NCBI GenBank assembly: GCA_017640785.1 | Contig: JAEPPZ010000001.1 | Coordinates: forward strand, 310,001 to 374,000 | DNA: 64,000 bases | DNA from: Balneola sp. | GTDB lineage: Bacteria > Bacteroidota > Rhodothermia > Balneolales > Balneolaceae | Reading direction: 5' to 3' | Shown: one piece after another, positions 8,597-14,005 of the stretch | How the letters are laid out: the number at the start of each line of letters is the position of its first letter | How positions within the stretch are numbered: position 1 is the stretch's first letter | Notes under the pieces: model-generated | What the model saw: only the letters and a program-made list of their open reading frames with translations | What the model was told of the DNA's origin: nothing | Databases searched by the model: none | Position numbers and translations under genes: made by a program

Positions 8597-9340
8597 CTAA
8601 AAATTAAATTTTAGTCGTGCGGTAACTCCTCTTTCACCAAACTCATTCAGGTAACTTACGCTTGCTTCCGGCAATCTAGATGATGCCTCTCTGGCTTGAG
8701 TAAAAGCATTTATCCCACTAAAAATACGATTGGCGACCATCAAAGTAAGTAATGTTGGTAATTGATTTTCAGAATTGGCAATTCTATCACGTGTATTCTG
8801 AAATTCAAACCTGTCATTATCAGATTCCCAGTTCCATCTGTTTTCAGGGGTATTTGGGAGAATATTCTGCCATCTTCGGGTTCTAAGCTGATAGTCGTTG
8901 TATTCCTCAAGATTATCAAAATTTGCGATTGCTAACTCAAACCCTCGGTCTTTACCGGATAAAGTAACCCCTGCTTTGGATCTAGCTAAAGTATTAAGAT
9001 TATTTTCCAGTCGATTTGCCCGAGCACTTAATCCAAAATATCCTGCAAGCAAACCAATTTCAGAACCCAGATGTATCTTTCCCCGAGTCCAGTTTTCATT
9101 ATCAACATAATGATGACCTAACCCCGGAACTACAAAAGAAAGTAATAAAGCTTTTCGGGGACTTGGAAGCTCTTCGAATTTACTTTCTTGCCCTCCATTT
9201 TCAAATCCTACCGATTGGGCGGAAACAGTATGAATAACGAATATTGAACACGTAATAATGAATAACGACGTATAGCTTAATTTTAAAATTATGCTTCTAA
9301 GACTTATTCTTTTGATCAATATTCCGTATTCGTTATTCAT
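8597..9340 (-). CDS. DUF5683-family protein
   Basis: A 247-residue protein with an N-terminal signal-peptide-like segment (YTSLFIITCSIFVIHTVSAQS) and then the family's PSPRKALLLSFVVPGLGHHYV phrase, in which a proline/glycine-containing hydrophobic segment precedes a GxxHY/GQxY turn, followed by a second hydrophobic stretch (IHLGSEIGLLAGYFGLSA) and a long charged region. The ATG start overlaps the end of ccmF by 8 bp (ATGAATAA), so translation is probably coupled and it is the last gene of the ccm operon. A TTG 18 codons upstream also opens the frame but lies deep inside ccmF. DNA encoding the first ~40 residues is unusual: it consists of inverted copies of an intergenic-type repeat (see findings). 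Function unknown; family members are predicted envelope proteins. Confidence 0.8.
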   Translation of the reverse strand: MNNEYGILIKRISLRSIILKLSYTSLFIITCSIFVIHTVSAQSVGFENGGQESKFEELPSPRKALLLSFVVPGLGHHYVDNENWTRGKIHLGSEIGLLAGYFGLSARANRLENNLNTLARSKAGVTLSGKDRGFELAIANFDNLEEYNDYQLRTRRWQNILPNTPENRWNWESDNDRFEFQNTRDRIANSENQLPTLLTLMVANRIFSGINAFTQAREASSRLPEASVSYLNEFGERGVTARLKFNF

Positions 9341-9352
9341 TATTCTTTTTTC
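9229..9352. repeat. Inverted pair of GAATAATGAATAACGAA-type repeats inside ccmF/DUF5683 coding DNA
   Basis: Two arms of the form TGAATAACGAATATTGA (left) and TCAATATT...TTCGTTATTCATTATTC (right) face each other about 50 bp apart. They resemble the ATTCATCATTCCTTGTTCATT-type intergenic repeat found three times near 13.4-13.9 kb. The arms encode the last residues of CcmF and the N-terminal and signal-peptide part of the DUF5683 protein. Confidence 0.6.
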
Positions 9353-11828
9353 TTTCTCTTCCCCAATGTCGGAAAATAGAAACGCTAAATCCAATCATAA
9401 GTAAAAAAGTACCCAGCCACACAACGGAAATAAAGGGCTTTTGTTCTGCTACAACTAAGATCCATTCACTTTCATATTCTTCATCTAGCCCTTCAATACT
9501 TAGATCAATTTCACCACTTTCGGGATATACTTTTGAAAAGCTGAATGTGAGATCATGTCCCGGTAACTCAACAGGTGGTGAAAACACAAATGTCTTGCCT
9601 TCTTCATCATTGTATAGTGCAAATAATGGCTCGATCAAATACTGCTGATTACTGGCCATGTGAGTAATTTGAATTTGAGCTCTTACTCCTATATTTGTAT
9701 TCGGAGGCAACTTTGTAGTGTCTTCCATTGCGTATTCCAGGAATGACATTTCGAATCCACCAACAGTAATAGTCTCTCCTTTTTCGAATTGGATGGTCTG
9801 TGTTTCAGGAACCTCACCTTCTTCTTTTGTAACCGGATCAACATTAGCTCGTCGAGCTATCATATCATTTCTCTGTTTGATAAATGAACTACCCGCTACA
9901 TAAAGATAAATATCACTCAATAAACCGGATCGAACATCAGGATCAACAGACCACTGAACGTTTTCCTGAGTAGAAGTTGCCAGCATAGGATATACTTCCG
10001 GATTCATATAGAATGGTTCCCCGCTTCCCAAAGGCAAAGGCTCGAAAAGAAGTTTATAAGTTTGTTGGCCGGGACGATTCTGATCCTGCAAGTCAAATCC
10101 TGTATAGGTTACTATATACTTATCATTTACAATTTTCGGCTCCTCAAGCTTTAACTCCAGAAAAAGAACGGGTTCAGTAACCGTGAAACCCATTTCATCT
10201 TTGATCACGCCTTGCTCAACCTGTTTATTGTAGTTGCTGATCCTTTCATCCAACATAGGCTTGTTATAAACAGATGAAGCTAGAATTCCAATCAACAAAA
10301 CCCCGAAACCTACGTGTGTTACTGAGCCTCCGATCAACTTTGGTTTCTTTGCACACAGCTGAACAATTACGAAAGTATTTCCAACTACCGCGAAGAAAGC
10401 TGTAAACATATAAAATATGTAGTACAAGTCTCTGACATCACCAAAAAATACAGCCGCAATCGTTAAAACAGAAGTAATTAAAAGCGGATTTATAAGAGCT
10501 GATGATAAGGTCTCAATAGAATATTTTTTCCAAAACAGATACTGCCCAATCACAGTAAACACTGCCATCAACATAGCGATAGGCATGCTCCATTGATTGT
10601 AGAAACTGATTTCCGGAGGAGTTGGATTTTCATTGAATAACAATCCTATAATCGGAGAACTGGTTCCCAAAATGATCACAAGTCCAAGTATGAACAGCAG
10701 GATTGCTCCCGTAAACGTCATGAACTCACGAGATAAGATCTGCGACTCTTTTTCCTGAGATGGAAGCTCTTTATATCTCCACAGAAACATTCCCAGTCCA
10801 AGTCCTGTTATCACAAGCATGAAAATCAGGAGTTGATTATACAATCCAAGATCCACAAAGCTGTGAACTGAAGAATCTGCCAAAATTCCGGATCTGGTTA
10901 AGAAAGTTTCATAAACAATAGCTACATAAGCCAGCAATGCAAAAATGATGGACGACTTTTGTGCCACCGAACTTTTTCGCTGAATGATCATAGTGTGAAT
11001 ACCGGCAGTGCCAATCAACCACGGAACGAGTGAAGCATTTTCAACCGGATCCCAAGCCCAAAACCCACCAAAAGAAAGAGTTACATATGCCCAATATCCT
11101 CCAAGAAAAATTGCTGTAAGCAGAGCCACATTTGAACTTAATGTCCATGGTAATGCAGGTCCAACCCATTCATTGTACTTTCTTTTCCATAGTGCAGCCA
11201 TAGCAAAACAGTATGGAATGGTCATCATAGAAAAACCGACAAACAAAAGAGGGGGATGAATCATCATCCATGGGCTTTTGAGCAGATCATTCAACCCGCT
11301 CCCATCCGGTGGAGCAAAATCGGGATTATTCTGTACTACGGGAATGTCCGGAAAGTTCTCTGCAAATGTTCTGAATGGAGAGGCTCCTATCGTCAGGTCT
11401 CCAAATTGCCATCCAACGATCATAGATATCAGGAATAGCTGGGTAAGTGTCAGAAAAAACATCACAGGAGCGCGATAAGGAGGACGTGTCCATCGAATCA
11501 ATCCCAATCCAAACAACCAGGAAAAGAAGATCCACAACATAAAACTACCTTCCTGTCCGCCATAAAAAGCTGACCAGATGTATTTCGCAGAAAGATCTAA
11601 ACTTGTGTAGTTATAAACGTAATAATATTTGAACTGATGGGTAAAGAGAAGATATACCAGCAAGGCTGATGCGGCAATCATAAACAAGCCTTGAAAGCCA
11701 AAGAACCAGTTCCCGATCTTCAGCCTTTGCTCATTTTCATCAGAAGCACTTTTAAAATAGTAGAAAAGAGAACCTAATCCAGAAACAAACGCCAGAGTAA
11801 TTAAAAGTTTACCAACAATTCCGATCAT
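9333..11828 (-). CDS. ccmF: Cytochrome c haem lyase subunit CcmF
   Basis: An 831-residue polytopic membrane protein of the CcmF/CcsA haem-handling superfamily. It holds the haem-binding WWD-type motif as WAWDPVENASLVPWL (from about residue 257), the conserved HPPLLFVG (H191) and the second histidine in GIHTMI (H278), followed by more helices, a large periplasmic domain (about 540-790) and a last transmembrane helix. It should take haem from holo-CcmE and attach it to apocytochrome c CxxCH sites on the periplasmic side. Its start lies 2 bp after the ccmE stop, and its 3' end overlaps the DUF5683 start. No ccmA, ccmB, ccmG or ccmH lies in this window. Confidence 0.95.
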   Translation of the reverse strand: MIGIVGKLLITLAFVSGLGSLFYYFKSASDENEQRLKIGNWFFGFQGLFMIAASALLVYLLFTHQFKYYYVYNYTSLDLSAKYIWSAFYGGQEGSFMLWIFFSWLFGLGLIRWTRPPYRAPVMFFLTLTQLFLISMIVGWQFGDLTIGASPFRTFAENFPDIPVVQNNPDFAPPDGSGLNDLLKSPWMMIHPPLLFVGFSMMTIPYCFAMAALWKRKYNEWVGPALPWTLSSNVALLTAIFLGGYWAYVTLSFGGFWAWDPVENASLVPWLIGTAGIHTMIIQRKSSVAQKSSIIFALLAYVAIVYETFLTRSGILADSSVHSFVDLGLYNQLLIFMLVITGLGLGMFLWRYKELPSQEKESQILSREFMTFTGAILLFILGLVIILGTSSPIIGLLFNENPTPPEISFYNQWSMPIAMLMAVFTVIGQYLFWKKYSIETLSSALINPLLITSVLTIAAVFFGDVRDLYYIFYMFTAFFAVVGNTFVIVQLCAKKPKLIGGSVTHVGFGVLLIGILASSVYNKPMLDERISNYNKQVEQGVIKDEMGFTVTEPVLFLELKLEEPKIVNDKYIVTYTGFDLQDQNRPGQQTYKLLFEPLPLGSGEPFYMNPEVYPMLATSTQENVQWSVDPDVRSGLLSDIYLYVAGSSFIKQRNDMIARRANVDPVTKEEGEVPETQTIQFEKGETITVGGFEMSFLEYAMEDTTKLPPNTNIGVRAQIQITHMASNQQYLIEPLFALYNDEEGKTFVFSPPVELPGHDLTFSFSKVYPESGEIDLSIEGLDEEYESEWILVVAEQKPFISVVWLGTFLLMIGFSVSIFRHWGRERKKNNE

Positions 11829-13333: not shown

Positions 13334-13443
13334 GCTTATGATCTGAATTAGCCAAAAATTATCATCATAAAAGACAATCGATATTCATCATTCCTTGTTC
13401 ATTATTCAATATTCACCTGTTCTTCTTCTCGATGTTTTAACCC

Positions 13444-13457
13444 GGACGTAAACGTCC
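13444..13457. repeat. REP-like palindrome, GGACGT-AA-ACGTCC type, copy 1
   Basis: Perfect 6-bp inverted repeat around AA, followed by TGCTGGTTTA. It lies in the first 260-bp unit. Confidence 0.75.
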
Positions 13458-13583
13458 TGCTGGTTTAATTTCTTCTAGTTCAATTATTTTTTTAAACAAG
13501 CAGATCCTTCAGGTTCTGCGGGATGTGGATAATGAATATCCTAAGATTCGAAATACATTATTTTAAATCCGAACATATTCGTC

Positions 13584-13597
13584 GGGCGTGAACGCCC
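13584..13597. repeat. REP-like palindrome, GGGCGT-GA-ACGCCC type, copy 1
   Basis: Perfect 6-bp inverted repeat around GA, followed by TTCTAGCTTA. It lies at the end of the first 260-bp unit. Confidence 0.75.
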
Positions 13598-13702
13598 TTC
13601 TAGCTTAAATCCAAGAAAAAGAAATGAATTTTTAAATAATTATTCATCATTCCTTGTTCATTATTCAATATTCACCTGTTCTTCTTCTCGATGTTTTAAC
13701 CC

Positions 13703-13716
13703 GGACGTAAACGTCC
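13703..13716. repeat. REP-like palindrome, GGACGT-AA-ACGTCC type, copy 2
   Basis: Same sequence and tail as copy 1, 259 bp further on, in the second tandem unit. Confidence 0.75.
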
Positions 13717-13843
13717 TGCTGGTTTAATTTCTTCTATTTCAATTATTGTTTTAAACAAGCAGATCCTTCAGGTTCTTCGGGATGTGATTGATCCAAATAT
13801 TTTTAGATTGGATGTACGTTAACTTAAAACCGGACACATTCCC

Positions 13844-13857
13844 GGGCGTGAACGCCC
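13844..13857. repeat. REP-like palindrome, GGGCGT-GA-ACGCCC type, copy 2
   Basis: Same sequence and tail as copy 1, 260 bp further on. The DNA just before it differs between the units (CATTCCC versus CATATTCGTC), so the hairpin is better conserved than its flank. Confidence 0.75.
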
Positions 13858-14005
13858 TTCTAGCTTAAATTCAAACAAAGGAAATGAATTTTTAAATAAT
13901 TATTCATCATTCCTTGTTCATTATTCAATATTCACCTGTTCTTCTTCTCGATGTTCTTCAATTCCTTTGTTATTTTGATAATCAAAAATATATCTGATCA
14001 AACTG

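Follow-up and report, generated by a model that had tools for sequence, protein, structure and literature searches.

Because signal peptides change rapidly in evolution, it is difficult to establish where they came from. The junction between ccmF and the gene downstream of it in the genome of a Balneola sp. (G000 below; the other G numbers denote the genomes compared with it) raises the question of whether an export signal has been made from a dispersed repeat, the donor sequence being identifiable in this case. The window analysed was a stretch of 64,000 nt (positions 310,001 to 374,000 of contig JAEPPZ010000001.1), and a preliminary description had proposed that the ccmF stop, the start of the next gene and much of its signal peptide come from inverted arms at this junction, akin to repeats at 13.4-13.9 kb.

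Both genes are read from the minus strand. In the list of open reading frames ccmF (9333..11828; 831 aa, with matches to PF01578 and PF16327) ends with the tail RERKKNNE* and a TAA stop at 9333-9335, and the downstream gene (8597..9340; 247 aa) begins with an ATG at 9338-9340, giving an 8-nt overlap (ATGAATAA on the minus strand). An alternative TTG start lies at 9317-9319. The downstream gene matches PF18935 (DUF5683) at 18.3 bits, below the curated cut-off of 26.7, and four relatives score 18.2-20.0; the label is therefore weak and we refer to a DUF5683-like gene. The stop codon and both candidate starts fall within a 39-nt unit on the minus strand (left unit, 9314..9352; GAAAAAA GAATAAT GAATAAC GAATACG GATTATT_PLACEHOLDER A second 39-nt unit lies in the opposite orientation (right unit, 9232..9270, plus strand; GAATAAC GAATATT GAACACG TAATAAT GAATAAC GACG), and its minus strand codes for residues 25-36, SLFIITCSIFVI. 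The 15 nt at 9254..9268 (plus strand) are the exact reverse complement of 9330..9344 (minus strand), and imperfect 19-nt arms (9230-9248 and 9322-9340) are 89% complementary. The minus-strand RNA of the junction folds at -29.8 kcal/mol (z -3.87), with none of 200 shuffles as low, and the tandem 7-nt periodicity of the junction is significant (lag-7 score 16.5 versus 4.3 for shuffled sequence, 0/200 as high).

The units at the junction belong to a dispersed family that has the approximate consensus, taken from sites in the same genome, GAATATT GAATATT GAACAAG GAATAAT [GC]AATATT GAAT. Copies placed in register resolve into five to six heptamers each, mostly of the form [GC]AAYNNN. Two models were used to score them: R1, a sequence model built from 21 units that included both junction units and a unit from an M61 peptidase gene (see below), and a leave-out matrix, built without these, with which the R1 results were retested. 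The window contains five units of this one 39-nt model, namely the inverted junction pair and three minus-strand units at 13.4-13.9 kb: an intergenic one at 13376..13414 (leave-out score 51.6; R1 40.9 bits) and two, at 13635..13673 and 13895..13933, within a direct repeat of about 260 nt (47.9 and 37.3 bits each). The right junction unit scored 40.1 and the left 31.1 with the leave-out matrix, compared to 4.8 for the best window site after these five and a maximum of 12.3 in the reversed window. With R1, whose building sequences included these copies, the right unit gave 38.0 bits (genome-wide E 5e-9) and the left 28.2 bits at 9315-9345 (319315-319345, minus strand, in the own-genome list). 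Thus, the kinship of the junction arms with the repeats at 13.4-13.9 kb holds at the level of a common family, although the letters are not exactly the same. Related words were also over-represented, with eight occurrences of AATAATGAATAACGAA at up to two mismatches in the window against 0.09 expected. At 13376-13933 a sequence of about 260 nt occurs three times in direct orientation, with one unit in each copy; the syntenic stretch of G007 has two such unit matches, showing that copy number varies among relatives.

The count of copies over the genome that the preliminary description had called for gave at least 47 units with R1, a lower bound since 150 of 2758 and 2941 first-look candidates were scored. 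In the loci that were read, 37 sites matched a final matrix, a figure that includes weak opposite-strand matches on strong units; the reversed control had none. A simpler pattern, three GAAYNNN heptamers followed by GAA, gave 41 matches in the genome and one in its reversed control; 17 of the 41 lie in a GAACTCA heptamer array on contig C1, which was excluded from the analysis of the units. In terms of established classes, the unit resembles heptanucleotide short tandem repeats in having tandem 7-nt units and, in this genome, in lying close to gene ends. It also has the terminal inverted repeats of a MITE, in the form of inverted pairs at the junction and elsewhere: six close pairs, including the junction, appear in the own-genome list, with the plus unit first and 39-88 nt from start to start, and five other sites in the genome fold better than their shuffles (z -2.7 to -3.8). 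REP elements are short palindromes tagged with GTAG or CGTC at one end (PMC3733652, available in part), and the unit, the consensus of which starts with [GC]AATATT, carries neither tag.

We then considered what such a unit can encode. The forward strand contains stop and start words (TAATGAATAA); among the 21 units, 17 have an ATG and all 21 have a stop in two of the three frames. On the reverse strand the three frames are open in 12, 20 and 16 of the 21 units and have a mean hydropathy of 0.79, 0.51 and 1.76, compared to about -0.68 for shuffled units. The unit is therefore well suited to supplying a stop or a start from its forward strand and a hydrophobic core from its reverse strand. At the junction, coordinates and translation bear out the proposal that the ccmF stop, the downstream start and the hydrophobic part of the putative export signal all come from the repeat. 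This predicted peptide, MNNEYGILIKRISLRSIILKLSYTSLFIITCSIFVIHTVSA|Q (9218..9340, minus strand), was judged by eye from the translation, and on inspection its sequence fits an n-, h- and c-region organisation with an A-x-A cleavage pattern. The n-region, with its Lys and Arg residues, comes from the spacer between the units, the h-region from the right unit, and the c-region HTVSA|Q from DNA outside the right unit; several orthologues have a similar A|Q ending of the N-terminal peptide. Translation probably starts at 9340 or 9319, and the peptide would act in export.

The DUF5683-like gene was found in 50 of 58 genomes. The ccmF tree of the genus was (G003,(G006,(G005,(G002,{G000,G001,G004,G007})))), the last four being unresolved. 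The six members with junction units form one clade, and the two outgroup members, G003 and G006, are without them. In the signal-peptide region R1 gave 38.0 bits in G000, G001 and G004, 22.6 in G002, 15.2 in G007 and 21.7 in G028, which is from another genus, and no match with E ≤5 in G003, G005 or G006. The leave-out matrix detected pairs in G002 (34.0 and 31.5) and G007 (22.8 and 19.4), a single unit in G028 (27.1) and, in G005, the right unit only (19.7), seen with this matrix alone; the best junction scores in G003 and G006 were 1.4 and 0.5. Unit numbers over the whole genomes were 4, 0 and 4 in G003, G006 and G005, respectively, versus 29-47 in G000, G001, G002, G004 and G007. The simplest reading of these sequences is that the junction pair was gained once, after the split of G006, the placement of this gain before G005 depending on the single weaker unit of that genome. 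The N-termini and signal peptides of the unit-free G003 and G006 are unrelated to that of G000, and thus neither presents the same N-terminal sequence encoded by unrelated DNA, the finding that would have spoken for chance likeness. The ccmF tails differ slightly among relatives (RERKK* in G002, G005 and G007, RERKKK* in G003 and RERKKNKD* in G006).

Heptamer periodicity at this junction extends beyond the genus. Of 30 of the 50 orthologue loci that were sampled, 22 gave a junction and eight had no recognisable one; in 13 of the 22 the period-7 test was significant (≤4/200 shuffles), namely G000, G001, G004, G002, G005, G028, G010, G014, G017, G032, G030, G012 and G020, with the proviso that in G010 lag 6 scored above lag 7. 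It was not significant in G007, G003, G006, G024, G016, G015, G019, G018 and G013. G012, G017, G020, G030 and G032 carry another type of heptamer, a GAATTTT-like palindrome in the n-region that encodes KFKILNF or a close variant. On the ccmF tree these five group together in a single clade, and so there may have been two or three gains rather than many. The GAATTTT palindrome was considered as a large dispersed family in its own right and rejected, as the five genomes had 3-14 matches each versus 0-2 in the control; in G017 and G012 the matches were mostly the junction itself, so that it is only moderately dispersed.

Comparison of G000 with its nearest relative by flanking DNA, G007, revealed a mosaic. 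Over the final 900 nt of ccmF the two are 94.8% identical, and over 540 nt of the mature gene 94.3%, but identity is only 58.2% over the 196-nt junction, where the pair of G007 has diverged and fails both the period-7 and the inverted-repeat tests. In 50-nt windows identity was 94-100% over the 300 nt preceding the RHW motif of ccmF, 52-60% at +25 to +200 and at least 90% between +200 and about +750, where the likeness ends. As a control, 13 open reading frames of the window with a signal-like N-terminus were selected by a crude rule that also caught non-secreted proteins; among the 10 with a counterpart in G007, nine keep 88-100% DNA identity over the N-terminus and the DUF5683-like gene alone falls to 57%. 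The drop at the junction, set against intact flanks and nine conserved N-termini, makes the block look replaced rather than drifted. Between G000 and G001 the junction has six differences in 196 nt. The corresponding identities for this pair were 92.9, 96.9 and 76.5%. As ccmF third positions agree at 82% between the two genomes, six differences are far below what neutral drift would leave. The near-identity of the junction in G000, G001 and G004 could, instead of recent exchange, reflect constraint.

A second gene of the same genome has a signal peptide apparently built from the unit. This gene encodes an M61 peptidase (PF17899, PF05299) with the predicted signal peptide MKKVLALHYSLFLVGYSIFATNVASA|Q, of which the unit encodes LHYSLFLVGYSIF in a reading frame different from that used at the junction; it contains a unit copy of the kind, within a gene, that the preliminary description had suggested looking for. 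R1 matches in the M61 signal peptide scored 41.0 bits in G001, 40.4 in G000 and G002 and 35.9 in G004; none was found in the M61 signal peptides of G005, G006 or G007, and the search for the gene itself gave no match in G003. Here too identity between G000 and G007 falls to 46-50% over the signal peptide, the downstream windows being mostly 94-100% with 84-90% at +125..+225. Upstream of the ATG about 45 nt are alike before the sequences diverge again, and the case for block exchange is less clean than at the junction. The G007 M61 signal peptide has another run of heptamers, TATTCCC TATTCCT AATTCCT (locus L370, about 1435-1500). As it has YSLFL in common with the peptide of G000, it is possibly a diverged relative of the unit-built one.

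The positions of the units with respect to genes are not random. Of the 47 units, from a genome with at least that number, 26 begin between -20 and +15 nt of a same-strand stop codon, compared to 57 of 4000 positions drawn at random from those loci, when open reading frames of at least 100 aa are considered and paired units are counted although they are not independent. For opposite-strand stops the figures were 4 of 47 and 71 of 4000. In 13 further loci with R1 matches, the distance to a same-strand stop was at most 8 nt in seven of the nine from the genus and in none of the four from other genera, so that this placement may be limited to the genus. The term 'intergenic repeat' in the preliminary description is therefore too narrow, as many units in the genus start at a stop codon on the coding strand. 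At ccmF, the next gene starts so close to the stop that the partner unit falls within its signal peptide.

Several explanations compete for these observations. One is chance: in an AT-rich genome, the T-rich core of a signal peptide might look like the repeat by accident. Codons with T as the middle base are indeed preferred in the cores of signal peptides, as they are in the reverse strand of the unit, and recoded signal peptides come close to the real one: the best of 2000 synonymous recodings scored 37.2 compared to 40.3, and a 15-nt perfect inverted pair arose in one of 1000, the real coding segment having 14. However, none of the 2000 reached the real score, albeit with a matrix that included both junction units; the leave-out scores stand far above those of the next site and of the reversed window; and the two units are in inverted order. 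Moreover, all 14 R1 matches with E ≤0.05, in a search of 63 loci (50 of the DUF5683-like gene and 13 of the M61 gene; 200,166 bases), are located either at this junction or within the signal peptide of the M61 gene. Given the leave-out scores, the reversed controls and the outcome of the recoding, we reject chance likeness as extremely improbable. A functional alternative is that the pair is kept for a role in RNA or DNA at gene ends, as an mRNA 3' hairpin, a terminator or an RNase site, with the signal peptide a tolerant passenger. The abundance of units at stop codons, the folds at other sites and the near-identical junction block in G000, G001 and G004 are all in keeping with this, but the pair is absent from G003 and G006 and there is no significant inverted repeat in G007. 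With the hairpin absent or undetectable in these three, it is dispensable at this junction. A role at transcript ends is nevertheless compatible with the data, and as such a role and a coding use do not conflict, both can hold; as the full account of the pair we consider it conceivable, with the balance tilted against it.

The two remaining alternatives concern how the units arise. They could derive from a mobile element, as its ends or as what is left of it, and this element might carry a gene of PF05635, the family of the 23S rRNA intervening-sequence protein; inverted pairs without a gene would then be MITE-like deletions. Among PF05635 genes of the type found at locus L068, inverted heptamer arrays lay within 140 nt on both sides in 10 of 30 loci, compared to none of the 30 best-scoring PF05635 genes, which suggests a link between the units and an element carrying such a gene; in Coxiella an element that has inverted repeats at its termini contains a PF05635-type gene (PMC4990558, available in part). 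Against this, one of the control loci (L119) has arrays on both sides just past the 140-nt limit, and unit numbers follow the numbers of neither PF05635 genes (4 units and 11 genes in G003, 29 and 12 in G007) nor Y1 transposase genes, making this origin rather unlikely. A general association of PF05635 with the repeat was rejected, as none of the 30 best-scoring genes had arrays on both sides within 140 nt, the link being confined to one subfamily. REP elements are mobilised by a Y1 (RAYT) transposase; the genome of G000 has eight such genes (PF01797), but their numbers do not bear out Y1 as the obvious mover of the units, there being 113 units and one gene in G019 and 4 units and five genes in G003. 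Alternatively, slippage and template switching might have built up the heptamers on the spot, the array being local and never a mobile copy. Different genera do have different heptamers at this junction, and slippage has been proposed as the origin of heptameric repeats (PMC4692102, in the portion available), but the junction copies fit the genome-wide 39-nt consensus, with the central heptamer in register with that of unlinked copies. As slippage alone fails to explain a central heptamer and a length common to unlinked copies in one genome, we regard growth in place as distinctly unlikely.

The best explanation of the whole, to which we assign a probability of about 0.78, is that an inverted pair at a stop codon became a start site and a signal peptide and was later exchanged as a block. 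In this scheme, the pair would have come to lie at the ccmF stop in the ancestor of the six genus members, by insertion or conversion, and would have covered the 5' end of the next gene, which begins within a few bases of that stop. The stop of ccmF and the start of the gene after it would then derive from the forward strand, the h-region from the reverse strand, which is often open and hydrophobic, and the positively charged n-region from spacer DNA, with the cleavage region coming from outside the unit. Later a block of about 200 nt would have passed between lineages without its flanks. Both the mode of arrival and this order of events are what we infer from the comparison of genomes. Bacteria can thus apparently make export signals from repeat DNA, and with relatives that have and lack the unit, and two genes using different frames in one genome, the origin of export signals becomes open to test. 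More tentatively, heptameric palindromes may continually provide the family with signal peptides, settling at junctions with a hydrophobic core ready on the reverse strand, the signals being swapped as blocks of about 70-200 nt independently of the mature protein; we think this somewhat less probable than its negation. If it were true, the differing heptamers at one junction in several genera would amount to repeated recruitment at one gene.

The comparisons that follow draw on the available portions of the papers cited. Repeat-derived signal peptides have a precedent in the enterobacterial small mobile sequences RU-1, RU-2 and RU-3, which like the unit are small dispersed repeats read in frame: RU-2 forms the predicted signal peptide of a pestis exported protein whose homologues have signal sequences unrelated to RU-2 (Delihas 2007, PMC2759123). 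The RU elements are MITE-like, 103-168 bp long and not heptamer arrays, and the text available describes neither positioning at stop codons nor block exchange (PMC2759123). Rickettsia palindromic elements are likewise palindromic repeats lying in frame in protein genes, but are about 150 bp and give fusions within gene products rather than a start site and export signal (PMC10969869); the likeness is one of kind only. Coxiella MITEs also extend proteins (PMC5896051). The claim that the junction is a rare case of a repeat turned into coding sequence consequently needs qualification; the conversion itself stands, but it is not unique, given the M61 gene in the same genome and these precedents in print (PMC2759123, PMC10969869). 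The heptanucleotide repeats of Xanthomonas and Nostoc, (GGGANTN)n in Xanthomonas, are variable, mostly intergenic and near one end of a neighbouring ORF; unlike the unit they are G-rich and, in the text available, have neither a 39-nt inverted unit nor a described role in signal peptides (PMC4692102). TAACTGA repeats of Beggiatoaceae, cyanobacteria and some Bacteroidetes have forward stops and an open reverse strand and are tolerated mostly at protein ends, but consist of one fixed direct heptamer, lie mostly just before start codons and encode LSVISYQ in reverse, with no export signal described in that portion of the source (PMC4679880). The intervening sequences of 23S rRNA with S23/IVP have terminal inverted repeats around a PF05635-type gene, but lie inside 23S rRNA, whereas here some PF05635 genes are found between protein genes, within heptamer arrays (PMC4990558). 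In the searched literature, the coverage of which excludes most subscription papers, the 39-nt unit, its placement at stop codons and the block exchange of signal peptides were not found. The analysis also points to an unexplained repeat, present in many genomes and located at stop codons in this genus.

Beyond the genus, arrays centred on GAACAAG, some of them plain tandem arrays, occur in at least 119 stretches, many of them from Bacteroidota and allied phyla and some from other phyla. Their 265 pattern matches fell into crude classes: 137 were intergenic, 28 had a same-strand stop no more than 30 nt away, 60 were N-terminal and 40 internal in open frames, many of which are themselves made by the repeat, and no clear unit-built signal peptide was seen among the 265. 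Several individual loci showed further arrangements. At L063 (1068-1513), L068 (1533-1967) and L071 (2550-2953) small PF05635 genes lie between inverted arrays of heptamers that differ between genera, at what we take from the peptide ends to be radC-argS-like and comM-like junctions, and at L175, L168 and L174 PF05635-type genes of other genera are found among arrays of GAATTAC, GGATGTC and other heptamers. At L061 an inverted pair (1429-1554) separates a gene ending in FIADRTVI from a downstream gene, presumably truA-like; the TGA stop has two of its bases in the first unit, and a likely GTG start comes right after the end of the second. At L062 two units in the same direction (397-435 and 1476-1514) bracket a PF04371 (PAD_porph) gene, the upstream unit supplying its ATG (MNIE...) and the downstream unit overlapping its stop.
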